A stretch of DNA of 51,721 nt, from assembly GCA_903913645.1 (NCBI GenBank), contig CAIWMA010000201.1:1-51721 (forward strand), in the 5' to 3' direction. Positions 3,956-43,458 of the stretch are shown piece by piece; positions within the stretch are counted from its first letter, which is position 1, and every line of letters starts with the position of its first letter. This DNA comes from an uncultured Bacteroidales bacterium (GTDB lineage Bacteria > Bacteroidota > Bacteroidia > Bacteroidales > UBA4417). A model generated the notes under the pieces. That model ran no database searches. It worked only from the letters and a program-made list of their open reading frames with translations, and had not been told where the DNA came from. Both the position numbers and the translations under genes were made by a program.

Positions 3956-4126
3956 AAAAAGGAAATTCTAAGAACGGAGCGGTGTAACATAAATTTATCC
4001 CTGCAAACGATTGAAGTTTTTAAAAGCAACAACAAAGAGGTTCATGATAAGAGAAATACAACAAGTGAGAAATTCATCAGCCCAGGCTGGTTGGGCATCT
4101 GAACTGTAATCAAAACCAATGCACAG

Positions 4127-5044
4127 ATGAAAAAGTTAATCCTCATAATCGTTTTGTTTACAAGCCTTTCCGGTTTTGCTCAACAGGACGTGCTCTTCAG
4201 CCAGTATATGTTCAATAAGCTGACAATTAATCCCGGTTATGCCGGCAGCCGTGAAGTGTTCAGCGCTGATTTGGTTTACCGGTATCAATGGGTAGGCCTT
4301 GAAGGCGCCCCACGAACTCTTGCGCTGAGCATGCATGCGCCTTTGCGTTATGATCATATTGCAGTGGGAGGTTATATTTACAATGATCAGATTGGGCCGC
4401 AAATTGACCAGGGAGCACTTTTAACCTATGCGTACCGCATCAATTTACCAAAAGGAAAGTTATCATTTGGTATACAGGCAGGTATTAAATACAATAGCAT
4501 CGACTGGAATAAAATCCTGCTTGAAGATCCGGATTTTGTCTTCCAGGGCGATCAGAAAAGTAAGGTGACACCAGATGCAAACTTTGGGATTTATTATTAC
4601 TCAAACCGAATGTTTGCAGGAATTTCATCGAAACAACTCTTACAAAACGAGTATGGAATGGTTACAGGATCGGATGGAAAGAAAACATACTCGAAACTTC
4701 TCCGGCATTTTTATGGCATAGCAGGCATTGCCGTTCCGATTTCCGATATGGTTGTTTTCAGGCCGTCGGTATTGGTGAAATATGTAAAAGATGCGCCCTG
4801 GCAAATGGATTTGAATGCAAGCTTCCTGTTTAACGATTTATTGTGGCTTGGTATGTCGTACCGTACCGATGGCGACCTGGTGTTTTTAACGGAATTTAAT
4901 ATCGGCAGGAAATACCGCATAGGGTATTCCTATGATGTGAATGTGAAAGACAGGATTCATTACAATTCAGGATCACACGAAATAAGGCTTGGTATTGATC
5001 TGGATCTGTTGAAAAACAGGATGTATACTCCAAGATATTTTTAG
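4127..5044 (+). CDS. PorP/SprF family type IX secretion outer-membrane protein
   Basis: A 305-residue protein with a signal peptide (about residues 1-18, ending SGFAQ) followed by the family signature QDVLFSQYMFNKLTINPGYA and later YRYQWVGLEGAPRT. The rest is an amphipathic beta-strand pattern ending in RYF, as expected for an outer-membrane barrel. Members of this family are needed for secretion or surface attachment of proteins with a type B C-terminal domain (SprF for SprB; PorP in Porphyromonas). The gene lies 171 bases after just such an adhesin and 33 bases before a PorE-like gene, so it is probably the adhesin's dedicated partner. The ATG at 4127 directly begins the signal peptide. Family assignment is firm; pairing with the upstream adhesin is inferred from position. 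Confidence 0.93.
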   Translation: MKKLILIIVLFTSLSGFAQQDVLFSQYMFNKLTINPGYAGSREVFSADLVYRYQWVGLEGAPRTLALSMHAPLRYDHIAVGGYIYNDQIGPQIDQGALLTYAYRINLPKGKLSFGIQAGIKYNSIDWNKILLEDPDFVFQGDQKSKVTPDANFGIYYYSNRMFAGISSKQLLQNEYGMVTGSDGKKTYSKLLRHFYGIAGIAVPISDMVVFRPSVLVKYVKDAPWQMDLNASFLFNDLLWLGMSYRTDGDLVFLTEFNIGRKYRIGYSYDVNVKDRIHYNSGSHEIRLGIDLDLLKNRMYTPRYF

Positions 5045-5077
5045 TTAATTTTTCTTCTAGCACTTAATGACCCGAGT

Positions 5078-7651
5078 ATGAACAAGCGATTTTTAGTTTT
5101 ATTCATAGCTGTTACCCTCGCAGGTACCGTGGCTCAGGCTCAGATATCCCAGGCTGATAAACTTTTTAATAGTTTCAGCTATTCTTCAGCTATACCCATC
5201 TATCTGAAAATTGCCCAAAAACCCGGAGATCCTGATCGTAATTATGCCATCATCAAACTGGCCGACTGCTACCGCCTTTCTAACGACCAACTGAATGCCA
5301 AGGCCTGGTATGCAAAAGCTGTTACCCTGCCGACAAGTGGTAATATTAATTGGTTCTATTACGGGGAGGCATTACAATGCGCCCAGGATTATGATTTGGC
5401 TAAGGAAGCGTTCGAAAAATACGATTACCTGGCTCCTGATGATCCACGTGGAAAAGCATATGCCGCCTTTTGCAATAACATTCAAAAGCTAACTGAAATT
5501 CCGGTCAACTTTGAAATTAAAAATGTAGCCAGCCTTAACTCCGATAGGTCCGATTTTGGACCTGCATTTTATGGTGACGGAATTATTTTTGTTTCCGACA
5601 GGCGACAGAATTTTATGGACAGCAGAAAGTACGAATGGACTAATTCCAATTACCTCGATCTGTATTATTCCACACCTAAATATCTCGATGAGTTTTTCCA
5701 GGAAATGAATGAGCCTAAATCGTTTGGCGGTAAATTTAACCAGACCTATCATGATGGCCCTGCCTCCTTTGCACGTCACGACAGTTTACTTTATCTGACA
5801 CGTGCCGAAAAAGGCAATGAGAAAAAAGATGCTGATAACTTCAGAACCGACAGGCTAAAAATATTTTACTCCAGTTTCAACGGATCGTGGTCAAAAACAG
5901 AACCTTTCTTTTTAAACTCTGATACATATTCAGTCGGCCACCCTGTGCTTACCCCTGATGGGAATACGTTATATTTTGTTTCGGATATGCCTGGCGGATT
6001 GGGTGGTACCGATATTTATTCCTGCCAATGGAATGCCGGCACGTGGGAACAGCCTGTCAACCTTGGTGAAAATGTAAATTCATTCGGCGACGAAATGTTC
6101 CCTTCCGTAAATGGAGATCAGCTTTATTTTGCTTCCAATGGCTTTGCCGGCTATGGCGGGCTTGATATTTTCAAGTCAACACTTTCTAATGGCAAATGGT
6201 CGAAAGCTGAAAATATGGGCCTTCCGATCAACTCCTCTTTCGATGATTTTGCTTTGATTTTAGACGCCCGTGGCCGGACAGGCTTCTTCAGTTCAAACCG
6301 ACCTGGCGGAAAAGGAAGCGACGATATTTATGCATGTAAACTTATTGACAAGAAATTACAGAAAAAACCTTGTATCGATGCAGCTCAGCTTGCCAAGCAT
6401 ATTGAAGATTCACTTTCGGTTACAATTTCGGGTTTTGTAAAAGACAAACAAACACAGAAACCGTTAGCCGGCACAACAGTTTTCCTGTTGAACACAGAAA
6501 CAGGTAAAGTAAAAGTGCTGAAAACAGATGAAAACGGCCAATTCAAAACAATGGGGAGAAAAGGCGTATTATATATCGCAAAAGGAATGGAAAACAATTA
6601 TTTGTCCGATTGTTTCAATTTCCGGTTAGCCACTACAGATACTTCGCATGTGGCTACAACGCCCAGGGATATTGTTCTCGACCGCCTCGAGCTGAACAAG
6701 ATAATTAGTATTGGAAGCATGAATTACTCTGTTGAAACCATTTACTACGATTTCAATAAATGGTTCATCCGCCCGGAAGCATGTATTGAACTCGATAAAC
6801 TGGTACAGGTAATGAAGGAAAATCCTGTTACCGTTGAACTCGGTTCGCATACCGACAGCCGTGGCAGCAAAGAATTTAATCTTGACCTGTCGCAGAAACG
6901 TGCTGAATCAGCTGTGCGCTACATCGTACTCCAGGGTATAGATGCGTCACGAATTACTGCCAAAGGATATGGCGAATCGCAACCCATAAACCATTGTATC
7001 GATGGTATGCCATGTTCGGCCCGCGAACACCAGGCTAACAGGAGAACTGAATTTAAAGTTACAGGATTCACCAAAACAGAGGCAAATTCTGACTATGACA
7101 TGAATAAATTTGCCAGCAATGAAGAAATTCCTGTTTACCTTCTCGACTGCAATTTCTTTAGCGATTGCATCCAGGACAGGAGAATGACCAAAGTAAAAAC
7201 CGCTGATGCAAACAAAGAAACTGCTCCGGCTGAAAATACGATTCAGCCAACAGCTAAGGCAACAAAACAGGCAAAGGAATTAAAACCAGTTAAGGAAGGA
7301 AAACCAGCAGTTGCCGAAAAACAAGCGAAGAAAGCAGAACCTGTTAGTGTAAAAGAGCAACCGAAAGAAATAAAAAAGCAGCCGGTAAAAGCTAGTTCAA
7401 GTGCTGTAAATTACAGGGTTCAGATATACGCACTTAACAGGGAAAAACCGTTGGTTGATCCTGAATTCGAGGGCCTGACAGATGTACAGATGTATACCGA
7501 AGACGGAATGTTTAAATATACCGCAGGTGTTTTCGATACCCATGAGGAAGCTCAGCAATATCGCGCCGAAATGGTACGAAACGGATTCAGCGATGCATTT
7601 GTGGTAACTTTTGCAAACGGAAAACGAATTTATGTAAGCCCGTCATACTAA
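5078..7651 (+). CDS. PorE-like periplasmic protein: TPR, beta-propeller, CRD, OmpA, plus SPOR-like C-terminus
   Basis: 857 residues with a signal peptide (1-22, ending VAQAQ). Then TPR-like helices (about 28-130); PD40/WD40-like propeller blades (about 150-430; LTPDGNTLYFVSD, GGTDIYSC, FPSVNGDQLYFASN); a carboxypeptidase-regulatory-like beta domain (about 449-495); an OmpA peptidoglycan-binding domain (about 550-655; YYDFNKWFIRPEA, GSHTDSRGS, NRRTEFKV); a Lys/Ala/Glu/Pro-rich linker (about 700-770); and a final SPOR-like module (about 776-857; YRVQIYAL, FKYTAGVF, AFVVTFANGKRI). The first four modules match the order of PorE, which anchors the type IX secretion machine to peptidoglycan. It is probably co-transcribed with the PorP/SprF gene (33-base gap) and is followed by a strong terminator. 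The extra SPOR-like end is unusual compared with textbook PorE. Confidence 0.88.
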   Translation: MNKRFLVLFIAVTLAGTVAQAQISQADKLFNSFSYSSAIPIYLKIAQKPGDPDRNYAIIKLADCYRLSNDQLNAKAWYAKAVTLPTSGNINWFYYGEALQCAQDYDLAKEAFEKYDYLAPDDPRGKAYAAFCNNIQKLTEIPVNFEIKNVASLNSDRSDFGPAFYGDGIIFVSDRRQNFMDSRKYEWTNSNYLDLYYSTPKYLDEFFQEMNEPKSFGGKFNQTYHDGPASFARHDSLLYLTRAEKGNEKKDADNFRTDRLKIFYSSFNGSWSKTEPFFLNSDTYSVGHPVLTPDGNTLYFVSDMPGGLGGTDIYSCQWNAGTWEQPVNLGENVNSFGDEMFPSVNGDQLYFASNGFAGYGGLDIFKSTLSNGKWSKAENMGLPINSSFDDFALILDARGRTGFFSSNRPGGKGSDDIYACKLIDKKLQKKPCIDAAQLAKHIEDSLSVTISGFVKDKQTQKPLAGTTVFLLNTETGKVKVLKTDENGQFKTMGRKGVLYIAKGMENNYLSDCFNFRLATTDTSHVATTPRDIVLDRLELNKIISIGSMNYSVETIYYDFNKWFIRPEACIELDKLVQVMKENPVTVELGSHTDSRGSKEFNLDLSQKRAESAVRYIVLQGIDASRITAKGYGESQPINHCIDGMPCSAREHQANRRTEFKVTGFTKTEANSDYDMNKFASNEEIPVYLLDCNFFSDCIQDRRMTKVKTADANKETAPAENTIQPTAKATKQAKELKPVKEGKPAVAEKQAKKAEPVSVKEQPKEIKKQPVKASSSAVNYRVQIYALNREKPLVDPEFEGLTDVQMYTEDGMFKYTAGVFDTHEEAQQYRAEMVRNGFSDAFVVTFANGKRIYVSPSY

Positions 7652-9746: not shown

Positions 9747-12038
9747 TTATTTACCGTAAGCAGCTGCTCTTTTCTCATGCGTTTGGGCATCAATCACGGC
9801 AATAGCGGTCATATTTACTATTTCGTTTACACTTGAACCCATCTGAAGTACATGAATTGATTTGTCGAGACCCATAAGTATCGGCCCGATTGCTTCGGCA
9901 CCTGCTAACTCCTGAATAAGTTTATAGGCAATATTTCCAGCAGTTAAGTACGGGAATATCAGGGTATTGGCAGCAGCACCAACTAATTTACTGAAAGGGA
10001 AATGTTCGGCAAGCATTTCATTATTTATTGCAAAATTTGCCTGCATATCTCCATCTACTATCAGTTCAGGATGATCGCGATGCAAAATAGCTACTGCATC
10101 TCTTACTTTGATTGGGATATTTCCTTCAACTGATCCGAAATTGGAGTATGAAAGCATAGCAATGCGGGGTTCAATGTTAAATGCACGTACAGCTTCTGCC
10201 GTCTGGAGAGTAATCTCAACCAGAGTTTCGGCCGTAGGATTCATATTAACAGTAGTATCAGCAAAAAAGAATGGACCTTTCTTGGTAAGCATAATATACA
10301 TGGCCGAAATCCGGTTGGTATTTCCTTTTTTCCCGATGATGCGCAATGCCGGGCGGATTGTTTCAGGATAACTTGTTGTTAGACCTGAAATCATGGCATC
10401 GGCATAACCGTTTTCGACCATACTTGGAGCAAAAAAGTTACGATGTCCCATAAAATCGAGAGCAAGCTGTTCATTTACCCCCCTGCGCTGACGTTTTTTA
10501 TAATACTGTTCAGCAAAAAGCTGGCGCATCTCGAGTTGCTCTTTTTTTGTAGGATCAATAATTTCAACGTTGGGCAACTCAAGATCATATTCTTCTATCA
10601 GCTGGGTGATTATCTTTTTGTTCCCTAAAAGTATAGGAATAGCTATTCCTTCATCCAGAACAATTTCAGCAGCCTTCAATACTTTATAGTTTTCTGCTTC
10701 AGCAAATACTACCCGTTTGGGATTTGCCTGTGCACGGGCTTTTATCTGCTTGATAAGCGGATTGGTAAGGCCGAGGCGTTTGGTAAGTTCTGCTTCATAA
10801 GCCGGCCAGTCGGTAATTGGTTTGCGTGCAACTCCTGTTTCCATCGCAGCTTTGGCAACAGCAGTGGCAACATACAGGATCAGGCGTGGATCACTGGGTT
10901 TAGGAATAATATATTCACTGCCAAATTTCAGATTCTTTGCGTTATATGCCACATTCACCTCTTCGGGAACCGGCATTTTAGCCAGATCAGCTAGAGCGTA
11001 AGCGGCTGCCAGTTTCATTTCCTCATTTATTGCCCGGGCCCTAACATCAAGAGCTCCACGAAACACATATGGAAATCCCAGCACATTGTTCACCTGGTTG
11101 GGAAAGTCGCTACGGCCGGTACCCATAATGATATCGGGACGTGCAGTTGTAGCTTCAACATATGAAATTTCCGGAACCGGGTTGGCAAGTGCAAACACAA
11201 TCGGGTTTGGTGCCATTTTCATCAGGTATTCCGGTTTTACTGCACCAGCTACTGAAAGACCAAGAAACATATCGGCACCGTCCAGAGCTTCTTCAAGTGA
11301 GTTGATGTCGCGTTCGGTTACAAATTCTGCCTTATATTTATTCAGCCCTGTCCTTTTCGAATTCAGCACACCCTTGCTATCGAGCATTATTATATTTTCC
11401 TTACGGACGCCTAATTTAATGTAAAGCCTTGTGCAGGAAACAGCAGCAGCCCCGGCACCGCTCACAACCACTTTCATATCCTCTATTTTCTTGCCATTTA
11501 TAACAAGCGCATTCAACAGGCCGGCAGAAGTGATAATAGCCGTACCATGCTGATCGTCGTGCATCAATGGAATATCGAGTTCTGCTTTAAGTCGCTCTTC
11601 AATTTCAAAACATTCTGGCGCTTTAATATCTTCGAGGTTTATACCACCGAAAGTCGGAGCAATGGCTTTAACCACAGCTACAAACTTATCAATATCTTTT
11701 TCATTCACTTCGATATCAAAAACATCGATATCGGCAAAAATTTTAAACAGCAATCCTTTCCCTTCCATTACAGGCTTGCCGGCTTCAGGGCCTATATCGC
11801 CAAGACCCAGAACAGCAGTACCGTTTGATATTACCGCTACCAGGTTGCCCTTGGCTGTGTACTTGTAAACATCGTCGGGGTTTGCCTTTATTTCGAGACA
11901 GGGCTCGGCTACACCCGGTGAATAGGCAAGCGATAAATCGCGCTGCGTGCTGTGGGGTTTGGTGGGAACTACTTCAATTTTGCCTGGTCGTCCTTCGGAG
12001 TGATAAGTGAGGGCGTTTTTTCGAATGAGTGTTGTCAT
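9747..12038 (-). CDS. maeB: NADP-dependent malic enzyme with C-terminal phosphotransacetylase-like domain
   Basis: 763 residues, the length of the hybrid MaeB class. The N-terminal part (about 1-430) is malic enzyme: [30 protein letters not shown], the metal-binding [10 protein letters not shown] segment, a dinucleotide fold at [10 protein letters not shown] and FALANPVPE. The C-terminal part (about 435-763) resembles phosphate acetyltransferase ([24 protein letters not shown]). It decarboxylates malate to pyruvate, making NADPH. In hybrid enzymes the second domain is thought to be regulatory (acetyl-CoA responsive) rather than catalytic; this is family knowledge, not visible here. It is transcribed away from ruvA, with a near-consensus promoter element (TTACTTTG, 12092 to 12085) 47 bases upstream. 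Confidence 0.95.
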
Positions 12039-12418: not shown

Positions 12419-13003
12419 ATGTATTCCTTTATTGAAGGTAAAATCGCTGACCTGAATCCTACTACCGCAGTGTTGGCTTGTCAGGGGATAGGATATTCTA
12501 TCAATATTTCGCTCAACACATATACCCAGATCCAGGGAAAAGAATCCTGCCGTTTGCATACGCACCTGGTAGTTCGTGAAGATGCGCTGATACTTTATGG
12601 TTTTGCTGATACAAGCGAAAAACATGTTTTTCAGCAACTTATATCAGTTTCCGGAGTCGGACCGAATACCGCCAGGCTCATTTTATCCTCACTTACATCA
12701 GCCGAAGTAGCCGAAGCAATTGCCAGTGAAAATGTAAAATTGCTCCAATCCATAAAAGGCATTGGTGGCAAATCAGCATTGCGGATAATAATTGATCTGA
12801 AAGATAAAATTATGAAGGACCTGCCGGCTGGCGAAAATTTAATGTCGGCGCACAATACAGGCAAACATGAAGCGTTATCTGCATTAGTAATGTTAGGCTT
12901 TAACAGGCCCGTTGCCGAGAAGGCCCTCGATCAGGTAATTAAAGCCAACGGAGGAACACTACCGGTTGACCAATTGATAAAAAGTGCACTGAAAATCCTC
13001 TGA
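12419..13003 (+). CDS. ruvA: Holliday junction branch migration protein RuvA
   Basis: 194 residues. N-terminal OB fold (about 1-63; MYSFIEGKIADLNP, LVVREDALILYGF), two helix-hairpin-helix motifs (SVSGVGPNTARLIL and SIKGIGGKSALRII) and the C-terminal RuvB-contacting helices (EALSALVMLGFNRPVAEKAL). RuvA tetramers bind Holliday junctions and load the RuvB motor; ruvB is not in this window. The gene sits 67 bases before sprA on the same strand and is probably co-transcribed with it. From memory, a malic enzyme - ruvA - sprA - gcvH order is common in Bacteroidota. Confidence 0.96.
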   Translation: MYSFIEGKIADLNPTTAVLACQGIGYSINISLNTYTQIQGKESCRLHTHLVVREDALILYGFADTSEKHVFQQLISVSGVGPNTARLILSSLTSAEVAEAIASENVKLLQSIKGIGGKSALRIIIDLKDKIMKDLPAGENLMSAHNTGKHEALSALVMLGFNRPVAEKALDQVIKANGGTLPVDQLIKSALKIL

Positions 13004-13070: not shown

Positions 13071-16000
13071 TTGTTGGCAGTAAAAGACAAAGAATCCAGC
13101 GGTTTGAACAGATATATCAAATACCTATCCAGGCTTTCTTTCTTTACTATACTTATATCTCTTTTCTGGGGAGTGAGTGCATCGATTGGTTTATCTCACT
13201 CGGATCTTGAAAAAGGCCATTTTATAACTCCTCCCGATTCAATACGTACTGACGGATCTTTACGTTTTCCCATCCCCAAAAGCCAGAATCCATACGATGT
13301 AACGCCTTCCGGAGGTTTATACCTGAAAAATCCTTCGAACCAGAAACAGGATGTAATCTACGACCCTAAAAACAATGAATATACAATTACCAATAAAATA
13401 GGCTCTATCGATTACCGGAATCCGGCGTCCTTTTCGTTCGACGAATACCGCAAATACGATACCCGCCGTGCATTGGACAGTTACTGGCAGGAACGCGCCA
13501 ACAGTTCTTCGTCGGCAACGAGGCTCGGTGTAATTCCCCAACTCCGGGTTGGAGGTGAACTTTTCGAACGCGTTTTTGGGGGTAACACAATAGATATCAA
13601 GCCACAAGGTAGTACTGAACTTACTTTTGGCGTAATTTCAAATCGCCGCGACGATCCCTTTATCAGCCAGAAATTGCGCCGCACCACGAATTTTGATTTT
13701 GGCATGAAAATCCAGATGAGTGTTCAGGCCAAAATTGGTGACAAAATTGAATTCAATACCAATTATAATACAGAAGCCACTTTCGACTTTGAAAATAAAC
13801 TTAAACTCAAATACGAGGGCAAGGAAGACGAAATTATCAAACTGATTGAAGCCGGTAATGTAACTATGCCTATTAACAGCACGCTTATAACCGGAAGCCA
13901 GAGCCTCTTCGGACTCAAAACCCAGCTTCAGTTTGGCAAGGCTACCGTTACCGGCGTATTCTCGCAACAGCAGAGCCAGGTTCAAAATATCACGGTCCAG
14001 GGCGGAGCCCAGACACAGAAATTCTCTACCCGTGCGCTTGATTATGAAGAAAACAGGCACTTTTTCATCGGGCAGGCTTTCCGCAACCAGTACGAAGGTG
14101 CTGTTGCCACACTCCCTGTTATTACCTCCAATATCAATATTTCGAAAATAGAGGTCTGGATAACCAATATTGGGGCTGCGATAACCGAAAACCGTAACCT
14201 CGTTGCTTTCCAGGATATTGGCGAAACCAATCCATATAATCCGAACATTCACTCTACATCGCAGTCAACCTATCCCGACAACGGATCAAACGACCTTATG
14301 CAGCAGTTGGATACAACCCAGGTGAGAGACATTAACAAAGCATCCAATTACCTGATCACCGCCAAAGGTTATACCCCCGGAATTGATTTCGAGAAAGTTG
14401 AGAGTTCCCGGAAACTCAACAGTTCCGAGTTCATGTATAACAACCGCCTGGGTTTTATTTCGCTTAACACGACCATAAATCCTGACCAAACGCTCGCTGT
14501 TGCTTATCAATACACTATTATCGGTGACGATAAGGTGTACCAGGTAGGGGAATTCTCCGACCAGGGAATTCCGACTAAAAGCTGCCTGGTGGTTAAATTG
14601 CTGAAAAGCACTTCTGTGAATACCCACGTTCCTTTGTGGAACCTGATGATGAAAAATGTTTATAACCTAGGTGCTTACAATATTAATAAGGAAGACTTCA
14701 TTCTCAATATTCTGTATACCGGCAACAGCAATGCAGTACCAACAGGATTTTTCGATAACGGACCCGCGGGAATTAAAGGGATTCCGCTCTTACAGATATT
14801 CGGATTAGACAAACTGGATCCTCAATTAAATACTCCTCACGACGGAATCTTTGACTTTATCGATAACGCGGCTAAAAACGGAGGTACCATACAGGCATCG
14901 AACGGAAGGGTATTTTTCCCCGTTTTGGAACCTTTCGGAAGTTACCTGCGGGCTAAAATCAACGACAAAGTGTTTGCCGACAAATATTGCTACGATTCGC
15001 TGTACACCATGACTAAAACCGGGGCTCAGCAATATCCTGACAAGAATAAATACCTTATGCAAGGGGAATATAAGTCGGAATCAGGATCGGAAATTTCGCT
15101 CGATGCCATGAACGTGCCCCAGGGATCGGTAAAGGTAACAGCCGGTGGCGTACAACTGGTCGAAAACGTGGATTATACAGTGGATTATACGCTTGGCCGT
15201 GTAAAAATTATCAACGAAGGCATACTCAATTCAGGAACCCCAATTAATATTCAACTCGAAAACAATTCCTTGTTTGCTGTCTATAGCCAGACTTTACTCG
15301 GAGCTCATGTCGATTACAAAGTGAACAAGGACTTGCTTCTGGGAGCAACTATACTTAACCTTTACGAGAGACCTATTACTCAAAAAACCAATTATGGCGA
15401 TGAGCCTATTAATAACACCATCTGGGGAGGAAGTGTTAATTACCAGAAAGAATCGGAGTGGATTACTAAAATAATTGATAAACTTCCGTTTTACAGTACC
15501 AAAACACCATCAAAACTTCGTGTAGATGCTGAATTTGCACAATTTATCCCCGGCCACTCAAAGGCAGTAGGAAAAGCAGGGACCTCTTACATTGATGACT
15601 TCGAAGGAGCAAAATCCACTATTTCGCTTACCAATATTTCGTCGTGGTCCATTGCCAGTACCCCGCAGGGACAAACTACATTGGGAATGTTCCCAGAAGC
15701 CGCTACAGGTACACGATTAGCATACGGATACAACAGGGCCATGACCTCCTGGTATACTATCGACCCTTCGGTATTCTACGATAAATCGAATTCGCGCCGG
15801 CCACCTGGCATCACCAATAAGGATCTTTCAAAGAATTCGGTCCGTGTAGTTTACGAAAATGAATTGTTCCCCAATAAGGAAAATCAATACAATCAGCCGC
15901 TGAATCTGAATGTCTTCAACCTTGCCTTTTTCCCCGAGGAACGTGGACCGTATAATTACGATGTTGAAGCCAAACCACCTTTCTCCAGAGGAATCAAGGA

Positions 16001-19000
16001 TCAAACAGGCTTATTGAAAGATCCCGAAACCCGTTGGGGTGGTATTATGCGCAAAATGGAAACCTCCGATTTTGAAGCTGCCAATGTTGAATATATTACA
16101 TTCTGGATGATGGATCCATTTACGGAATCATCAACTCAACTGGGGAAAACAGGTGGTGATTTGTATTTCAATCTTGGTGACATTTCGGAAGATATTTTGC
16201 GCGACGGTCGCAAATCCTACGAAAACGGACTTCCAACTTCAGCCGTAATAACCGACGTTGATACCACAGAATGGGGCCGTGTGCCAACCAAACAGGCTTT
16301 AACACAGTCATTCGACAGCAGGCCCGAATCGCGCCCTTTTCAGGATGTAGGATACGACGGATTACCAACATCGGATGAGCAGGGATTCTTCTACGACAGG
16401 TTCTTAGCCCAGATCGCGCAAAAGTATGGTGCGAACTCAACCGCATATGTTCAGGCCAACGACGACCCTTCGACGGATAATTTCCACTCTTTTGTAGGTG
16501 GAGATTATGACAGTGACCCTAAATATACTAACATCGTTGAAAGGTATAAATTATACAACGGACCTGATGGAAATTCCCCGGCTAACAACGATAACAATTC
16601 CAATAACATAGGACAGCGGAATCCGAATGTTGAAGATCTGAATAACGACAATACTCTGAGCGACCAGGAACGGTATTTCCAGTATGTAGTTCACCTTCGG
16701 CCTGAAAACTTGGTTGTAGGAGAAAATTATATCACCGATATGTATGATTCAAAAGGAACGGTTAAACTTCCTGATGGATCGATGGGTGGAGTTAAATGGT
16801 ACCAGTTTAAAATCCCTGTTCAGCAACCTGATAAAGTTGTTGGGGGAATTCAGGATTATAAATCGATACGATTTATGCGTATGTTTTTTAAGGACTGGGA
16901 CACCGCTGTTGTGTGCAGGTTTGCATCACTCGAATTGGAACGGGGTGAATGGCGAAAATACAATAACAGCTTACTGACACCTGGCGAATATATTCCCGAC
17001 CCGAACCAGGACGGAACAACTTTCGATATTTCGACACTGAGTATAGAGGAAAACGGGAGCAGGATTCCTGTTCCGTACGTTGTGCCTCCCGGAATTGATC
17101 GTGAAATAAATGTTGCTACAACCAATTACCAACAGCTGAATGAGCAGGCAATGGTGTTTAAAGCCTGTAACCTGCTTGATGGTGATGCCCGCGGTGCTTA
17201 CAAAACTACAGATTTTGATTTCAGGGATTACAAGAATCTGAAAATGTACATTCATGCTGAAAAAGCTATCAAGGAGCAGGAACTTAAAAAGGGCGAGCTG
17301 ACGGCATTTGTAAGGTTTGGATCCGACTTTACGACGAACTATTATGAATATGAGATACCTCTCTCTTTCACTCCATGGGGCACTTCAGCCGGCGATCCGG
17401 CAGCTATATGGCCGGAGGATAATATCATGAATATTGAGCTGGCAAATCTGGTTGATGCCAAACAAGCCCGCAACAATGCTATGAACAGTTCGGGTTCGAC
17501 CATAAGCATGACCACACCTTATAGCATCGCCGATCCGAATAACAGGAATAATAAAATCACTATTGTCGGGTCGCCCAGCATGAGCGATGTTAGAGCTATG
17601 ATGATAGGGGTTCGGAATCCAAAGCGCAGTCCAAATAAATTAGGCGACGACGGCCAGGCAAAATGTGCCGAAGTATGGGTAAATGAATTACGGCTTACCG
17701 ATTTTAACGAAAAGTCGGGCTGGGCCGCCAATGCAAGAATATCCACAAACCTGGCTGACCTGGGTAATGTAATGCTATCAGGAGCTTACAGTTCTGCAGG
17801 ATTTGGTAGCATCGAAAAGAAAGTGAACCAACGGCAGAAAGAAGCGATCAGCCAGATGGACGTTGCAACAAACCTGGAACTGGGCAAATTCCTTCCCGAA
17901 AAATCAGGCATCCGCATCCCGATGCACTACGATTATTCGCAAACTATTAGTAATCCCCAATACAACCCGCTTGATCCGGATGTATTGTATAAAAACCAAA
18001 CCGATGGGATGAACAAAAAGCAGAGTGACTCCTTGAAATTGCTTACTTCGGATGTAACGCAGCGTCAAAACCTGAACTTCATGAATGTACGCAAGGATAG
18101 GGTTGGCGCTGCTGCAAAACCACAACTCTGGGATATTGAAAATTTTGACGTTTCCTACGCCTATTCCGAAATCAAGCATCACAACAACGATATTGAATCC
18201 TTTAAACAAAAAACTTACCGTGGCGGACTGGGATATAATTTTACTGTAAATCCTAAAAATGTCAAACCATTCCAAAAAACAGTCCGGTCAAAGTCGCTTT
18301 CGATTATTCGCGATTTTAACTTCTACTTCCTTCCGAAATTACTATCGTTCCGTACCGATATGTACCGTAATTATGAGAAAAAACTACTCCGCAATAAGAG
18401 TGGCGCTGTTATTTTTATAGAACCGAATTATACCAAGCAATGGGACTGGAACCGTATCTACGATGTAAAATATGATTTAACCCAGGCTCTGAAGCTGGAT
18501 TACAGCGCAAATGTTAATGCGTATGTACAGGAGCCCTCGGGAGGTTACGAAAAACAAAACAGCAATTACCAGAATTACCGCGACACCGTATGGAATTCGA
18601 TAAAGAATTTTGGTTCAACGAACCGGTTTAACCAAATGGCCAATGTCAATTATACCGTTCCTTTTAATAAAATCCCGATACTAAACTGGGTTACCCTGAG
18701 TGCGCGTTATGGAGTAAAATACCGTTGGGAAGCGTCGCCACGATCGTTACAGGCGAGGTTTGGAAATACCATTGAGAATTCGCGCGACATACAATTGAAT
18801 GGAGGAATGCGGTTTACTACTTTGTATGATAAGGTTCCTTTCCTCAAAAAAGCACGGCTTGAATTGCAAAATAAGAGCCAGGCACAACCTGGTAAATTAC
18901 CGGGGCGGGAAATGGAAAATCTTAAAGCGAAAGATGCCAAAACTGACCTCGCCAAAAAACAAGGAAAAAAAGATGCCAAAGCTGACAGTCTTGATGTGCC

Positions 19001-20393
19001 TAAAAAAGACTATCTGAAAATAATCGGAAACTATTCTCTGGGCATATTAATGTCAGTGAAAGACGCCAACTTTACATATTCGAAATCTAACGGTATAATT
19101 CTACCGGGGTTTACACCTGAGCCAGGTCCTTTAGGAAACACCTGGGGTTTGAATGCTCCCGGGCTGGGCTTTATTTTTGGGAGCCAGAAAGATATTAAAT
19201 TTAAGGCAGCATCGTCGGGATGGATAACTACAGATACCTTGCTGAACAATCCTTATATAACCAGGGCAACAGAAAATCTTACCTTCCGTTCAACCGTGGA
19301 GCCGGTACGGAATTTTAAAATTGATGTAACTGCCGAACGGGCTTATGCGACCAGCTACACCGCTTATTACAAAGCCAACAGCAATGGTGAATTCACGAAT
19401 CCAACCAAACCTCAGGATCGTGGAAATTTCAGCATGTCGTATGTTATCTGGTCAACAGCTTTTACGAAAGATAATAGCAGTGACGAAAGTCCTGTTTTCG
19501 AAAAGATGCTCTCTTACCGGAAAACTATTGCCGAAAGACTGGCGAAAGAAAATCCCAACTCCGTAGGCACAGATTCACTTGGTTTCCCAAATGGGTATGG
19601 ACCTACACAGCCGCAGGTGTTGTGGGCTTCGTTTATGGCTGCTTACAGCGGAAAAGATCCTAACAAAATTAAATTTAATGCATTCCCAAAAATCCCGTAT
19701 CCTAACTGGCGTGTAACGTACAATGCCACACAGGGAATAGAAGTGCTGCGCAAATATTTCCAGTCATTCAGTGTTTCACACGCCTACCGTTCTTCATATT
19801 CTGTTGGTGGATTCCTCACCGATATCAATTACGCTGATATAGGAGGTTTCCCTGCTGCGCTTGATAATGCGAAGAATATCATACCCGAAAAACGAATGGA
19901 TGTAATTACAGTTACGGAACAGTTCGGGCCACTCATCGGGTTTGATATGACCATGAAGAACAGCATGCTGGCACGGTTGGAGTTCAAGAAAACAAGAAAT
20001 CTCTCATTAAGCTTCGTTAACAACCAACTTACTGAAATGCGCAGCAATGAAATAGTAGTAGGAACTGGTTACCGTTTTAAAAGCGTTCCTTTTAAAGTAC
20101 GATCGCTCGCTACAGGCAAAACAGTGACTATGAAAAGTGATCTCAATATAAAACTTGACTTTTCAATACGTGACAATAAAACAATTCTGCGGCGTATCGA
20201 AGAAAACAACAACCAGATTTCTACCGGAACAAGGGCTACATCTATCAATTTTTCGGCCGACTACATGGTAAGCCAGAAACTGAATGTGCGACTTTTCTAT
20301 GATCAGACCATCAGCAAACCACATGTATCTGCCCAGATACCAACTTCCAATACCAATGCTGGTCTTACGTTAAGGTTTACACTGGCGCAATAG
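13071..20393 (+). CDS. sprA: SprA/Sov, type IX secretion outer-membrane translocon
   Basis: 2,440 residues, the size of SprA, which forms the very large beta-barrel channel through which type IX substrates cross the outer membrane. Family features: an N-terminal hydrophobic export segment (about 18-40; LSFFTILISLFWGVSAS), long stretches of alternating beta-strand sequence, SprA N-terminal-type regions (LRVGGELFERVFGGN, IDIKPQGSTELTFG), the conserved YIDDFEGAKS and a C-terminal aromatic/hydrophobic strand (LTLRFTLAQ). A Lys/Asp/Ala-rich linker lies at about residues 1945-1980. No ATG is available near the start; two consecutive TTG codons (13071, 13074) precede the export segment, so a TTG start is proposed. 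It serves the adhesin at the left end and probably other exported proteins encoded elsewhere. Confidence 0.94.
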   Translation: MLAVKDKESSGLNRYIKYLSRLSFFTILISLFWGVSASIGLSHSDLEKGHFITPPDSIRTDGSLRFPIPKSQNPYDVTPSGGLYLKNPSNQKQDVIYDPKNNEYTITNKIGSIDYRNPASFSFDEYRKYDTRRALDSYWQERANSSSSATRLGVIPQLRVGGELFERVFGGNTIDIKPQGSTELTFGVISNRRDDPFISQKLRRTTNFDFGMKIQMSVQAKIGDKIEFNTNYNTEATFDFENKLKLKYEGKEDEIIKLIEAGNVTMPINSTLITGSQSLFGLKTQLQFGKATVTGVFSQQQSQVQNITVQGGAQTQKFSTRALDYEENRHFFIGQAFRNQYEGAVATLPVITSNINISKIEVWITNIGAAITENRNLVAFQDIGETNPYNPNIHSTSQSTYPDNGSNDLMQQLDTTQVRDINKASNYLITAKGYTPGIDFEKVESSRKLNSSEFMYNNRLGFISLNTTINPDQTLAVAYQYTIIGDDKVYQVGEFSDQGIPTKSCLVVKLLKSTSVNTHVPLWNLMMKNVYNLGAYNINKEDFILNILYTGNSNAVPTGFFDNGPAGIKGIPLLQIFGLDKLDPQLNTPHDGIFDFIDNAAKNGGTIQASNGRVFFPVLEPFGSYLRAKINDKVFADKYCYDSLYTMTKTGAQQYPDKNKYLMQGEYKSESGSEISLDAMNVPQGSVKVTAGGVQLVENVDYTVDYTLGRVKIINEGILNSGTPINIQLENNSLFAVYSQTLLGAHVDYKVNKDLLLGATILNLYERPITQKTNYGDEPINNTIWGGSVNYQKESEWITKIIDKLPFYSTKTPSKLRVDAEFAQFIPGHSKAVGKAGTSYIDDFEGAKSTISLTNISSWSIASTPQGQTTLGMFPEAATGTRLAYGYNRAMTSWYTIDPSVFYDKSNSRRPPGITNKDLSKNSVRVVYENELFPNKENQYNQPLNLNVFNLAFFPEERGPYNYDVEAKPPFSRGIKDQTGLLKDPETRWGGIMRKMETSDFEAANVEYITFWMMDPFTESSTQLGKTGGDLYFNLGDISEDILRDGRKSYENGLPTSAVITDVDTTEWGRVPTKQALTQSFDSRPESRPFQDVGYDGLPTSDEQGFFYDRFLAQIAQKYGANSTAYVQANDDPSTDNFHSFVGGDYDSDPKYTNIVERYKLYNGPDGNSPANNDNNSNNIGQRNPNVEDLNNDNTLSDQERYFQYVVHLRPENLVVGENYITDMYDSKGTVKLPDGSMGGVKWYQFKIPVQQPDKVVGGIQDYKSIRFMRMFFKDWDTAVVCRFASLELERGEWRKYNNSLLTPGEYIPDPNQDGTTFDISTLSIEENGSRIPVPYVVPPGIDREINVATTNYQQLNEQAMVFKACNLLDGDARGAYKTTDFDFRDYKNLKMYIHAEKAIKEQELKKGELTAFVRFGSDFTTNYYEYEIPLSFTPWGTSAGDPAAIWPEDNIMNIELANLVDAKQARNNAMNSSGSTISMTTPYSIADPNNRNNKITIVGSPSMSDVRAMMIGVRNPKRSPNKLGDDGQAKCAEVWVNELRLTDFNEKSGWAANARISTNLADLGNVMLSGAYSSAGFGSIEKKVNQRQKEAISQMDVATNLELGKFLPEKSGIRIPMHYDYSQTISNPQYNPLDPDVLYKNQTDGMNKKQSDSLKLLTSDVTQRQNLNFMNVRKDRVGAAAKPQLWDIENFDVSYAYSEIKHHNNDIESFKQKTYRGGLGYNFTVNPKNVKPFQKTVRSKSLSIIRDFNFYFLPKLLSFRTDMYRNYEKKLLRNKSGAVIFIEPNYTKQWDWNRIYDVKYDLTQALKLDYSANVNAYVQEPSGGYEKQNSNYQNYRDTVWNSIKNFGSTNRFNQMANVNYTVPFNKIPILNWVTLSARYGVKYRWEASPRSLQARFGNTIENSRDIQLNGGMRFTTLYDKVPFLKKARLELQNKSQAQPGKLPGREMENLKAKDAKTDLAKKQGKKDAKADSLDVPKKDYLKIIGNYSLGILMSVKDANFTYSKSNGIILPGFTPEPGPLGNTWGLNAPGLGFIFGSQKDIKFKAASSGWITTDTLLNNPYITRATENLTFRSTVEPVRNFKIDVTAERAYATSYTAYYKANSNGEFTNPTKPQDRGNFSMSYVIWSTAFTKDNSSDESPVFEKMLSYRKTIAERLAKENPNSVGTDSLGFPNGYGPTQPQVLWASFMAAYSGKDPNKIKFNAFPKIPYPNWRVTYNATQGIEVLRKYFQSFSVSHAYRSSYSVGGFLTDINYADIGGFPAALDNAKNIIPEKRMDVITVTEQFGPLIGFDMTMKNSMLARLEFKKTRNLSLSFVNNQLTEMRSNEIVVGTGYRFKSVPFKVRSLATGKTVTMKSDLNIKLDFSIRDNKTILRRIEENNNQISTGTRATSINFSADYMVSQKLNVRLFYDQTISKPHVSAQIPTSNTNAGLTLRFTLAQ

Positions 20394-20614: not shown

Positions 20615-20995
20615 ATGAATATTCCAGAAAATCTTTATTACACCAATGATCATGAATGGATCAAGGTAGAAGGTAATACCGGCACAGTTGGTGTTACCGA
20701 TTTTGCACAACACCAGCTTGGCGACATTGTTTTTGTAGACGTTGCAACAGTAGGCGAAACCCTGGCCGAAGGTGATACTTTTGGAACCATCGAAGCTGTT
20801 AAGACTGTTTCCGACTTGTTTATGCCTATCGATTCGGAAGTAATTGAATTTAACGAAGCGCTGAACGACGAGCCTGAACTTATTAACAAGGATCCATACA
20901 ATGCAGGCTGGATAGTTAAAGTAACCATTGCCGACACTTCAAAACTTTCGGATCTGCTAACTGCTGTGCAATACAAAGCATTAGTTGAAGCTTAA
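20615..20995 (+). CDS. gcvH: Glycine cleavage system H protein
   Basis: 126 residues, standard length. The lipoyl-attachment site is Lys63 in [15 protein letters not shown], with the usual upstream HEWIKVEG and [17 protein letters not shown]. The lipoyl arm carries the aminomethyl group between the P, T and L proteins of the glycine cleavage complex. The other gcv genes are not in this window. Lipoylation would use the octanoyltransferase and lipoyl synthase encoded at 47.7-49.4 kb. A 22-base gap separates a consensus promoter element from the start. Confidence 0.97.
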
Positions 20996-21193: not shown

Positions 21194-21862
21194 ATGGAAC
21201 TAAAGAAGTCAGCGAAAGCAGATGTTGGATATTCTTTCAGATTGGCCTGATATTTTCGATGGCTGCAGCGCTGTTTGCTTTTGAGTGGAAGTGTTATGGC
21301 ACATCGATTATACAATGAATAGCAACCTAAGAGTTAATACTGATACTGAAGAAAAAGTTGAAATAACACAGCAAAAATGCTCTCTCGCCTTTGCTGCCTC
21401 TGCCGTCAATATTCTCCATATAGTTCAGAACACTGCACAAATAAACGATAATATTGCTATTGCTGCTGAAGCCGACGAAAGCACCCAGGTAAATGAATAT
21501 AAATGTCCGGCAGTTGTTCGACTGGAAGAAGAACCTAAAGTCAAGGAGCAGGAGATTTTATCATTGGCGAAAATGCACCTCTTTCCCCTGTTGATGACCT
21601 GGCCCAGAGCAGGTTCCTTCAGCAAAATATCATATTCTATACAATGGCAAAGGAAAGTGGAATTCAGGGAACAGTAAATTTCATTTTTGTAATGGACGCA
21701 ACGATCCTGTTACCAATGTAAAAATCCTCCTGATATCCGAGTCATATACTATGAAGAAGAGCTGAAAGTAATATTGAATATTCCTGGAAGGGAAACAGAG
21801 AAACAAAGGGCTAAACTGGTTCGGCCGCAGTTTAATTTGCGCAAAAATTTAAACTTTCAGGC
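21194..21862 (+). pseudogene. Decayed energy-transducer TonB gene
   Basis: Pieces of a Bacteroidota TonB protein occur in the right order but in changing frames. ATG at 21194 gives MELKKSAKADVGYSF and then a stop. Another frame (from 21241) gives the membrane segment IGLIFSMAAALFAFEWK. A third frame (within 21285-21677) gives the acidic linker (AEADESTQVNEY, EEEPKVKEQEI). A fourth section (about 21564-21720) gives SRFLQQNIIFYTMAKESGIQGTV-like sequence, the start of the TonB C-terminal domain, ending at a stop. A last piece (21774-21862) gives IPGRETEKQRAKLVRPQFNL, the domain's end. At least four frame changes or stops mean no intact product. TonB C-terminal domains energise outer-membrane receptors; this copy cannot. 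Confidence 0.85.
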
Positions 21863-22000: not shown

Positions 22001-22708
22001 ATGAAAAGACTTCTTCCTTTTTTAATTGTCTTGTTTGTTGTTGCCTCATTGCAGGCACAGAATCTGCAGGTCCATTACGATTTTGGCAAAACCCGTAAAC
22101 TAGTGACCTCTACTGTCGAAATGTTTAAACCCGATAAATGGGGAAGTACTTTCTTCTTTATTGATATGAATTATGATGTCAATAACGGAAAAACAATGAG
22201 CCTTGCCTATTGGGAAATTGCCCGGGGCATTAAACTGGGCAAGAGCCCTTTTGCAGCACATGTTGAATACAATGGTGGTTTCGGACAGTTTAATATGGGA
22301 TCAAGCTATGGTGCTTATCAGATAAACGATGCCTGGCTGACTGGTATTGACTATAATTACAATAATAAAGATTATACGGGTGGTATCAGTTTCCAGTTAC
22401 TTTATAAATATATCCGCAATAAGCAGGATTTCGCTTACCAGTTTACAACCGTTTGGTATCTGCATATGCTGAAAAAGAAAGTAACTTTTGACGGTTTTGC
22501 CGATTTCTGGCGCGAGGATAATTCCTTTAGTGAAGAAGGCTCGACAACCACAAAGAATACGAAATTCGTTTTTCTTACTGAACCCCAGATATGGTATAAC
22601 CTAACTGAAAATCTTTCGTTCGGTTCCGAAATCGAAACGAGTGTAAATTTCTCAGGAAATAAAGGATTTATGGTTAACCCCACGCTGGCAGGAAAATGGA
22701 AGTTCTAA
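22001..22708 (+). CDS. DUF5020-family outer-membrane protein, Tsx-like
   Basis: 235 residues with a signal peptide (about 1-20, ending SLQAQ), then alternating amphipathic strands rich in Trp, Tyr and Phe, ending in a terminal aromatic (WKF), as in small outer-membrane barrels. The pattern (FFFIDMNYD near the start, YNGGFGQFNMGSSYGAYQIN) matches the DUF5020 family, which is related to the nucleoside channel Tsx; this is recalled from family knowledge. The gene sits 20 bases before an AzgA-type purine permease, so the two are probably one transcript and one pathway: nucleoside or base entry through the outer membrane, then uptake. Substrate not proven. Confidence 0.78.
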   Translation: MKRLLPFLIVLFVVASLQAQNLQVHYDFGKTRKLVTSTVEMFKPDKWGSTFFFIDMNYDVNNGKTMSLAYWEIARGIKLGKSPFAAHVEYNGGFGQFNMGSSYGAYQINDAWLTGIDYNYNNKDYTGGISFQLLYKYIRNKQDFAYQFTTVWYLHMLKKKVTFDGFADFWREDNSFSEEGSTTTKNTKFVFLTEPQIWYNLTENLSFGSEIETSVNFSGNKGFMVNPTLAGKWKF

Positions 22709-24213: not shown

Positions 24214-25188
24214 ATGAGTGTTTTCAAGCCTGAAGTCTTTCAGGGGACTATGTCTGGTAAACGGTATTTTGAAGGGTGGTACTTTAAACATGTTTCTAAA
24301 GACCAGGAGCATGTGTATTCCTTTATCCCGGGCATTTCACTGAATCCGGAAAATCCTCATGCCTTTATACAGGTAATTAACGGGCTTACCGGTATAACAC
24401 ATTACATTGAGTATCCTCTTACCTCTTTCAGTTTCAGCAAAAAAACGCTCAAAGTTCAGATTGGCGATTCGGTATTTACATCGGATAGCATGGTATTAAA
24501 CATTGATTCTCCATTAATCAAGGTAAGCGGGCACCTTGGGTATTCGGGAAGCTTGAAATATCCGACTTCATTAGTATCGCCCGGGATCATGGGCTGGTAT
24601 TCCTTTGTTCCGTTTATGGAATGCAAACATGGTGTCGTTTCTGTTTCACATCGTATTGATGGAACTTTATTGGTTGACGGCGAAATACTTGATTTTTCGG
24701 GCGGGAAAGGTTATATCGAAAAGGATTGGGGTAAGTCATTTCCTGAATCCTGGATCTGGTTTCAAAGTAACAATTTTGCAAACTCCGACGCCTGTATTAT
24801 GATGAGCATTGCCAAAATTCCCTGGCTCGGAAGCTTTTTTACAGGATTCCTCGGCTTTTTGTATTTCAATGGCTCCTTTTATCCTTTCAGCACATACCAT
24901 AAATCAGAAATCACAGCGCTAAACCTGGCTGATGAAAAACTAACATTAGCATTTAAAGGTAAAAAACATCTGCTGAGTGTTACGGCAATACTTCGGAATT
25001 CCGGAATCCTTCTGGCCCCTAAATCGGGAGCAATGAGCCGCAGAATAAAGGAAAGTGTGGATTCGGAACTCGAGATTGTATTATCCGACCTGAAAGGAAA
25101 TGAAATTTATCGGGATAAAGCTTCGCGTGCCGGGCTCGAAGTAATTGAAGGGATTTTTGATATTGTTAAGATCAAAGAAAAAAGATAG
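24214..25188 (+). CDS. Tocopherol cyclase-family protein of unknown function
   Basis: 324 residues, no signal peptide or clear membrane span. It carries the family hallmarks: KRYFEGWYFKHVS near the N-terminus, IMGWYSFVPFMECKHGVVS in the middle, and GYIEKDWGKSFPESWIWFQS. In plants and cyanobacteria related proteins close the chromanol ring of vitamin E, but bacteria of this phylum are not known to make tocopherol, so the real substrate is unknown; a lipid or prenyl-type molecule is only a guess. It is monocistronic, preceded by a terminator and followed by a palindromic repeat. Family call is good; function open. Confidence 0.85.
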   Translation: MSVFKPEVFQGTMSGKRYFEGWYFKHVSKDQEHVYSFIPGISLNPENPHAFIQVINGLTGITHYIEYPLTSFSFSKKTLKVQIGDSVFTSDSMVLNIDSPLIKVSGHLGYSGSLKYPTSLVSPGIMGWYSFVPFMECKHGVVSVSHRIDGTLLVDGEILDFSGGKGYIEKDWGKSFPESWIWFQSNNFANSDACIMMSIAKIPWLGSFFTGFLGFLYFNGSFYPFSTYHKSEITALNLADEKLTLAFKGKKHLLSVTAILRNSGILLAPKSGAMSRRIKESVDSELEIVLSDLKGNEIYRDKASRAGLEVIEGIFDIVKIKEKR

Positions 25189-40839: not shown

Positions 40840-43458
40840 ATGAAAAAAGCGCTACTTTGCCTTGCATTGCTCATTTCTACAACTATCATATCTGCGCAAA
40901 ATGTGCTGACAGGTATTGTAACCGATGACCAGAAACAACCGGTGTCAGGAGTAAGTGTCTACGAAAAAGGCACTACTAACGGTGTATTTACTGACTATAA
41001 CGGTAAGTATTCGGTTCATTACAAGTCCGAAAACTCGGTAATAGTTTTTAGTTTTGTAGGATTAGTCGCCCAGGAGATTACGGTAGGGAAACAAACCTCA
41101 CTGGATGTCTCGCTTACCAGCAACAACATTTTGGACAAGGTGGAAATTGTAGGTTCCCGGCGTCCAAACCGCACCTCTGTTGAGAGTATTGTTCCGGTTG
41201 ACATTATTGAAGTTTCCCGTTTATTGTCTACCATGGGACAACCGGATGTAAACCAGATGCTTCAATATGTTGCACCTTCATTTAATTCGAATAAACAGTC
41301 GGGTGCTGATGGCGCTGACCACATTGATCCTGCCACCCTGCGCGGACTTGGCCCTGATCAAACACTGGTACTTATAAACGGGAAACGCCGGCACCAGTCA
41401 TCCTTAATTAATATTTTCGGTTCACGTGGCAGAGGAAATACTGGTACCGACCTCAATACTATACCTATTTCAGCCATCGACCGCATAGAAATATTACGTG
41501 ATGGTGCAGCCGCTCAATATGGTTCGGATGCAATTGCCGGGGTAATAAATATTGTTCTGAAATCGAATACCGACGAATTTACCGGCAGTTTAACTACCGG
41601 AGTAAGAAATGCTACTCCACCCAGCGAATACAATGTATTGGCGGAACCTAATAAAACAGATGGCCAGCTTACACAATTTAATGGAAACTACGGAACAAAA
41701 ATAGGTGAAAAGGGTTTTGTCAACATGACTCTTGACTATGGGAAACTTGAACATACCTTTCGTCGCGCCGACCCGACAAAATATGATGTTTACCGGAATA
41801 AATTCGGGGATGCCGCTTCCGAAAGTTTTGCAACGTATTTCAATTCATCATTCAGTACAGGAAAGAAAACTGAGATTTACATGTTTGGTGGTTACAACTA
41901 CCGGTTCACCGATGCTTTCGCTTTTAGCCGCGTCGCCGACGAAAACAGGAATGTGACCGAAATATATCCTACCGGATTCGATCCCCAGATTCAGTCTGTT
42001 ATCATTGACAAATCTCTTTCGGTAGGGATGAAAACTTTAATAAACGGGTTTAAATTAGATTTTAACAACACATTCGGAGGCAATAATTTCCAATATACGG
42101 TTGACAACACTTTGAATTCTTCGTTGGTGACCAAATCGCCAACACGATTTGATGCAGGCGGTTTTTCATTGAACCAGAATACAACTGCCCTGGATATTTC
42201 CAAATTATATCCAACAGTTGCAAAAGGATTAAATGTTGCCTTTGGCGCTGAATACCGTGTAGAGAAATACCAGATTGTCGCCGGTGAGGAAGGTTCTTAT
42301 AAAACCTACGGACAAGTAGTTTTTGCTGTAGATGGTACTGATACTACATTCAGACCTGGCGGCTCGCAAGGTTTCCCCGGATTCCAGCCTAGCAATGAGT
42401 TGAAGGAATCGCGCAGCAACTTTGGAACTTATGCTGATCTTGAGTTGGATGTTACAAAAAAGTTCGTCGTGAGTGCTGCCGCCCGTTTTGAGCAATACAG
42501 CGACTTCGGGAATACGATGAACGGGAAATTTGCCACCCGGTATAAAGTTTCTGATGCTTTTTCCTTGCGCGGCTCTTTAAGTACAGGTTTCAGAGCACCT
42601 TCGCTGGCACAAATGTATTTCAATACCACATTTACTGACATCGTTGCCGGACAGGCCATTGATAAAATCATTGCAAAAAACAATAGTCCTCTCACCCGCT
42701 CATTAGGTATTCCGGCATTAAAACAGGAAGTTTCTTTAAATGCAGGTCTTGGCTTCACCGCAAAAGTTAAATCGTTGTCCTTAACAGTTGATGCTTATTA
42801 TGTGCGGATCAAAGACCGTATAGTACTTACCGGTTCCTTTTACAGCGACGACAACGTAATAGGCGACGAACTCAAAAATCTCAATATCGGGGCAGCCCAG
42901 TTTTTTACAAATGCAGTAAACACAACTTCCAAAGGGGTGGATGCAATCCTGGGCTACTCTGTTTTACTTTCGGGTCACCAAAACCTCAGGTTTACGTTTG
43001 CCGGAAATTTTAACGATATGGTTATTGATAAAATCTATACCAACGATAAATTAACAGGAAAAGAAGATGTCTATTTCGGGCTTCGCGAACAATATTTTTT
43101 ACTTGCCTCGGCTCCTAAAAGCAAGTTTAACTTCGGAATTGATTATTCCAGAAATAATTTCTTTGCCAACCTTAAACTTACCCGGTTCGGCAAAGTGGAA
43201 CTTATTAACTGGAATGATAACGGAGATAATGTAATTGATGCCGGCGAGCTGGATACCTACAAACCAAAAGTTACAACAGATTTATCAGTTGGATATAACC
43301 TGAAAAACTTTACTTTCACTGTCGGTGGTGTTAATATCATGAATGCGTATCCCGACAAACATGATCCTGCCCTTACCGAATCGGGAGGAATCTGGGATAG
43401 TGTACAGATGGGATTTAGCGGCGCATTATACTTTGTTAAAATCGGATTTAAATTCTGA
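40840..43458 (+). CDS. TonB-dependent receptor with N-terminal carboxypeptidase-regulatory-like domain
   Basis: 872 residues. Signal peptide (about 1-19, ending IISAQ); a carboxypeptidase-regulatory-like domain (about 21-100; LTGIVTDDQKQPVSGVSVYE, GVFTDYNGKY); a plug domain (about 115-245; LRGLGPDQTLVLINGKRRH, IDRIEILRDGAAAQYGSDAI); then a 22-strand-type barrel to the C-terminal YFVKIGFKF. It moves a bound substrate across the outer membrane using TonB energy. The substrate is not evident: there is no SusD, siderophore or vitamin gene beside it. The conserved plug style resembles iron-type receptors more than the SusC glycan class. It is monocistronic with its own promoter and terminator. Confidence 0.93.
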   Translation: MKKALLCLALLISTTIISAQNVLTGIVTDDQKQPVSGVSVYEKGTTNGVFTDYNGKYSVHYKSENSVIVFSFVGLVAQEITVGKQTSLDVSLTSNNILDKVEIVGSRRPNRTSVESIVPVDIIEVSRLLSTMGQPDVNQMLQYVAPSFNSNKQSGADGADHIDPATLRGLGPDQTLVLINGKRRHQSSLINIFGSRGRGNTGTDLNTIPISAIDRIEILRDGAAAQYGSDAIAGVINIVLKSNTDEFTGSLTTGVRNATPPSEYNVLAEPNKTDGQLTQFNGNYGTKIGEKGFVNMTLDYGKLEHTFRRADPTKYDVYRNKFGDAASESFATYFNSSFSTGKKTEIYMFGGYNYRFTDAFAFSRVADENRNVTEIYPTGFDPQIQSVIIDKSLSVGMKTLINGFKLDFNNTFGGNNFQYTVDNTLNSSLVTKSPTRFDAGGFSLNQNTTALDISKLYPTVAKGLNVAFGAEYRVEKYQIVAGEEGSYKTYGQVVFAVDGTDTTFRPGGSQGFPGFQPSNELKESRSNFGTYADLELDVTKKFVVSAAARFEQYSDFGNTMNGKFATRYKVSDAFSLRGSLSTGFRAPSLAQMYFNTTFTDIVAGQAIDKIIAKNNSPLTRSLGIPALKQEVSLNAGLGFTAKVKSLSLTVDAYYVRIKDRIVLTGSFYSDDNVIGDELKNLNIGAAQFFTNAVNTTSKGVDAILGYSVLLSGHQNLRFTFAGNFNDMVIDKIYTNDKLTGKEDVYFGLREQYFLLASAPKSKFNFGIDYSRNNFFANLKLTRFGKVELINWNDNGDNVIDAGELDTYKPKVTTDLSVGYNLKNFTFTVGGVNIMNAYPDKHDPALTESGGIWDSVQMGFSGALYFVKIGFKF

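Follow-up and report, generated by a model that had tools for sequence, protein, structure and literature searches.

Positions 21194-21862 of the DNA analyzed here almost certainly carry a unitary pseudogene of the gcvH-linked TonB gene, which is intact in relatives and has decayed in place under neutral drift. The window, meaning the whole stretch of DNA under analysis, comprises bases 1-51721 of contig C201 from G000, a 5.71-Mb MAG of 593 contigs that is 93% complete. Its relevant features are listed below.

9747..12038, − strand: malic enzyme fused to a phosphate acetyl/butyryl transferase domain (PTA), 763 aa (PF00390, PF03949, PF01515)
12419..13003, + strand: ruvA (PF01330, PF14520, PF07499)
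13071..20393, + strand: sprA, type IX secretion translocon, 2440 aa, intact (PF14349)
20615..20995, + strand: gcvH, intact open frame, the upstream anchor
21194..21862, + strand: tonB pseudogene, the remains of a 231-aa gcvH-linked energy transducer whose frame is broken by eight gaps (frame-tolerant and DNA alignments, codon-position test)
22001..22708, + strand: DUF5020 gene, intact, the downstream anchor (PF16412)
40840..43458, + strand: TonB-dependent receptor (PF00593, PF07715, PF13715)

A DUF5020-type neighbor also lies 3′ of the intact tonB in G012, G008, and G009, and its start is visible in G004. Further along, a tocopherol-cyclase-like gene (24214-25188; PF14249) recurs near gcvH across the genus and directly follows it in G015. 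On the 5′ side of the sprA locus, positions 2-7651 of the same contig encode a CHU_C/SprB-repeat protein, a PorP/SprF protein, and an OmpA-PD40-CarboxypepD_reg protein, the domain set of which we take to be PorE-like. A plasmid search using the tonB-relic region returned gcvH as its sole match, and the papers listed by literature searches included none on this tonB locus.

The first-pass annotation had described fragments of a single TonB arranged in order over three frames, and three-frame translation of 21194-21862 indeed recovers the pieces that it quoted, in that order. In a purpose-written frame-tolerant protein-DNA alignment, the kind of comparison that the annotation had proposed, the region covers residues 1-231 of intact orthologues and matches one protein throughout, with 126/231 identities (score 489) to the orthologue of G004, 132/231 (score 520) to that of the sister genome G012, and 109/227 (score 354) to that of G009. 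By comparison, 20 shuffles of the G004 protein score 31-61, and the reverse strand scores 33. A MAFFT DNA alignment with G012, G008, G004, and G009 places eight gaps and zero insertions in the relic, at approximately 21229 (13 bases), 21306 (1), 21376 (5), 21411 (1), 21562 (1), 21693 (1), 21730 (1), and 21843 (1). None is divisible by three, such that every one of them breaks the frame; a ninth gap of 3 bases was dismissed, being the cut end of the query and not a lesion. The same alignment shows that the position of the ancestral stop no longer holds a stop codon. The raw frames contain 16, 4, and 12 stops, which are out-of-frame stops, the actual breaks being the changes of frame. Owing to the eight gaps, no single open frame runs from the membrane segment through the linker to the C-terminal domain, and the locus thus makes no TonB. 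A PF03544 (TonB_C) profile search at E ≤ 0.001 does not detect the relic, as would fit a decayed C-terminal domain, whereas the intact G004 orthologue scores 80 bits; only the full orthologue as query finds it (C201:21312-21842, E 2.3e-21). Three features characterize the relic as a pseudogene: it aligns colinearly with an orthologue that is intact at the same place after gcvH, it carries disrupting lesions, and it has lost purifying selection.

The loss of selection is evident from derived changes counted per codon position with G012 as sister and G004 as outgroup. On the window branch, tonB has accumulated 39/38/39 changes at positions 1/2/3 (222, 224, and 223 sites), as opposed to 8/8/33 on the branch of G012 (Fisher P 8e-5 for the contrast). 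Over the same window branch, gcvH shows 5/2/25 and the last 3 kb of sprA 48/28/172; both keep the third-position bias, so that of the three genes tested, tonB alone has lost constraint. Moreover, the per-site change in tonB (0.173) equals that at sprA third positions (0.174). Such equal change across codon positions at the silent-site rate makes the loss old when measured against the divergence of the window from its nearest sampled relatives (79% identity in the last 3 kb of sprA DNA). Since that divergence, the tonB gene has spent most of the time evolving neutrally. The neutral share of the window branch is estimated at 0.98, with a simulated range of 0.56 to above 1, and a cruder hand estimate from synonymous and nonsynonymous codons gives about 0.78.

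These figures bear on the term "recent" in the first-pass annotation, and thereby on a tonB still functional until not long ago. In favor of this, the gene has kept most of its length (669 of 693 coding bases, with the G004 gene as reference), the pieces are still recognizable, synonymous codons are in slight excess (26 vs 17.7 expected), and nonsense codons are absent; however, change that is equal across codon positions, together with a neutral share near the whole branch, makes such a late loss decidedly unlikely. As to the nonsense codons, the 217 complete codons, which carry 112 window-branch changes, include none, where random placement expects 4.7 (P 0.005). When an early constrained phase is allowed for, approximately 3.6 are expected (P about 0.03, hand computed). 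It should be noted that this test is post hoc and weakened by a mixed history, and no significance is claimed for it; a first phase of the branch under constraint accounts in part for the missing codons. Deletions account for all eight lesions, without a single nonsense codon, a pattern that could also be expected if sequencing or assembly errors alone had broken an intact gene, in a MAG of 593 contigs whose rpoB has one suspicious in-frame TAG close to the end of a contig. Against such errors, amino-acid-changing sites in tonB have evolved as fast as silent ones, unlike those of gcvH and sprA, which errors confined to one gene would not bring about. The adjacent 7.3-kb sprA, gcvH, and the DUF5020 gene are all open, and eight indels plus an excess of amino-acid changes would have to be invented within one gene. 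On this argument from the sequence itself, assembly error would be excluded, and we regard it as very improbable. The rpoB codon (G000:C53), located about 100 bases from the locus end where G012, G008, and G004 have lysine, is itself most likely an assembly error.

A remodeled gene, in which a shorter frame would encode a new functional protein, could be read from the frame at 21285-21677, which is open over 130 codons (130 aa). However, this frame includes neither the membrane segment nor the C-terminal domain, PF03544 is blind to it, and the substitutions show no codon periodicity, which leaves remodeling a negligible probability.

The gcvH gene is present in all 16 genomes of the genus, and an intact TonB of 227-234 aa lies directly 3′ of it in 7 of the 15 relatives (G003, G004, G005, G007, G008, G009, and G012), which bears out the proposal that the ancestral TonB has decayed in place. 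Identities of these orthologues to that of G004 (G012, 77%; G008, 76%; G009, 72%; G005, 68%; G003, 68%; G007, 65%) broadly track the species tree, making inheritance likely rather than transfer. No TonB is found downstream of gcvH in the other eight relatives (G001, G002, G006, G010, G011, G013, G014, and G015). A tblastn search for remnants in these (E ≤ 1), spanning up to 6 kb 3′ of gcvH and less where the contig ends, yielded just two chance-level pieces (E 0.85 and 0.89). G001 and G010 are 74% and 64% complete, and both contigs continue past the locus with the next genes visible. Relocation of the gcvH-linked tonB was considered and rejected, as there is no orthologue-level match elsewhere in the genomes without the gene; their best long matches are paralogues with 46-57% identity, and higher identities span only the C-terminal domain. 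The gene has therefore been lost in 9 of the 16 genomes, that of the window included. Thus, the first-pass notion of a recent loss at a conserved locus stands with respect to the decay and fails with respect to recency, the window representing one loss among those nine genomes.

The number of losses was evaluated on an ML tree of concatenated SprA, GcvH, RpoB, and three neighboring genes, in which G009 is almost without SprA and G010 without RpoB. If regain is impossible, six losses are counted (G000; G001; G010; G011-G014-G015; G013; G002-G006). This count is soft: three nodes have support of 44-59, the grouping of G000, G012, and G008 is unlabeled, and collapsing the former while leaving the latter open gives at least three losses. 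The genes following gcvH vary among the losers, in keeping with separate deletions, and separate losses are the most likely explanation for absence without remnants in the other lineages of the genus. The sprA gene is found upstream of gcvH in each of the nine genomes without a working tonB at this locus (window and eight relatives). Among the eight relatives, the entire compared C-terminal stretch of sprA is present in six; in G001 the contig end truncates it, and in G002 sprA ends approximately 3.4 kb before gcvH, with other open frames in between.

The gene order malic enzyme-ruvA-sprA-gcvH-(VanZ)-TonB had been described as conserved in Flavobacteria by the first-pass annotation. The portion sprA-gcvH-(VanZ)-TonB is borne out by 80 gcvH loci from GTDB genomes, 68 of them outside the genus; ruvA and the malic enzyme gene were looked at in the window only. 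Outside the genus, sprA ends within 1.5 kb upstream of gcvH at 37/68 loci, and a TonB lies within 2 kb downstream at 33 of these 37, compared with 6/31 loci without sprA in that place. A VanZ gene intervenes between gcvH and TonB at 28 of the 33, a count that may be low as VanZ was sought with one query sequence. Within an order sample of 119 genomes, including that of the window, 27 have a TonB match (E ≤ 1e-50) no more than 2 kb 3′ of gcvH on the same strand (hand count), and 26 of the 31 genomes with a TonB match at E ≤ 1.2e-66 have it linked to gcvH. In one order-level genome, the gcvH match counted (G088:C35:42671-43045) contains one in-frame TAA.

Other tonB genes, which the first-pass annotation had advised looking for, are not scarce in G000: 12 PF03544 matches were obtained, including two TonBs with ExbB/ExbD genes. 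One of these, on C2, adjoins a partial ExbD where the contig terminates, and a run of ExbB, ExbD, and a partial ExbD stands at the end of C400. Given that an ExbD-ExbD-TonB run is unbroken in G012 and G008, C400 and C2 are likely to form one operon split in G000, the join being inferred. The other is on C78, where TonB, ExbB, and ExbD are grouped. Further TonB_C proteins are encoded on C235 (283 aa) and C583 (261 aa), and in other matches the TonB_C domain is fused to different protein segments. The C2 TonB has a TonB_C domain and, across residues 23-231, is 49% identical to the intact G004 protein encoded after gcvH; it differs from the relic in its N-terminus, its linkage to ExbD, and its being intact, and is a paralogue, not the ancestor, of the relic. 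Multiple TonB homologues are reportedly the subject of one study in B. thetaiotaomicron.

The receptor at 40.8 kb, for which the loss was thought to imply the use of another TonB, is genuine by its domains, and other TonBs are available in the genome. G000 has 60 plug domains, second among the 16 genomes (range 17-64). Lower demand for TonB was considered as a cause of loss and rejected, because neither raw plug-domain counts nor ExbD counts separate the genomes that keep the gene from those that have lost it. The raw plug counts are 60, 35, 41, 30, 28, 35, 29, 28, and 40 in the losers G000, G001, G002, G006, G010, G011, G013, G014, and G015, and 38, 64, 28, 17, 46, 40, and 46 in the keepers G003, G004, G005, G007, G008, G009, and G012.

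Taken as a sequence of events, the gcvH-linked TonB, single in the lineage, almost certainly became dispensable soon after the split from the lineage of G012 and G008; substitutions and eight small deletions then gathered by neutral drift, and its job has probably passed to the TonB paralogues that are left, which would share ExbB/ExbD motors. This is the ordinary decay of a dispensable paralogue, that is, ordinary gene loss. Unitary bacterial pseudogenes decay in place between intact neighbors while their orthologues stay intact in relatives. The relic follows the same pattern and differs in nothing of substance, its lesions all being deletions. It resembles Bacteroidota TonBs of the sprA-gcvH-(VanZ)-TonB order in its position after gcvH, its length class, and homology over 231 residues, but unlike them it is frame-broken and without codon-level constraint.

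The retention of sprA in all nine losers indicates that the gcvH-linked TonB is not needed for keeping sprA, and the conserved sprA-TonB neighborhood does not mean that type IX secretion requires this TonB. One report (PMC12204202) suggests that a TolA/TonB-like transducer may serve the type IX secretion protein PorE; the tonB-loss data neither support nor refute this idea for other TonBs. It is conceivable, if rather improbable, that the sprA-linked TonB is a specialized transducer, perhaps for type IX secretion or envelope proteins like PorE, that is retained at the majority of sprA-gcvH loci but that the genus repeatedly drops, even though sprA and dozens of TonB-dependent receptors stay. 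Should this be true, comparison of keepers and losers could reveal a private client. The relic itself represents a clean and roughly datable loss of one TonB paralogue, and a genus that contains both keepers and losers lends itself naturally to the search for what an orphan TonB energizes.
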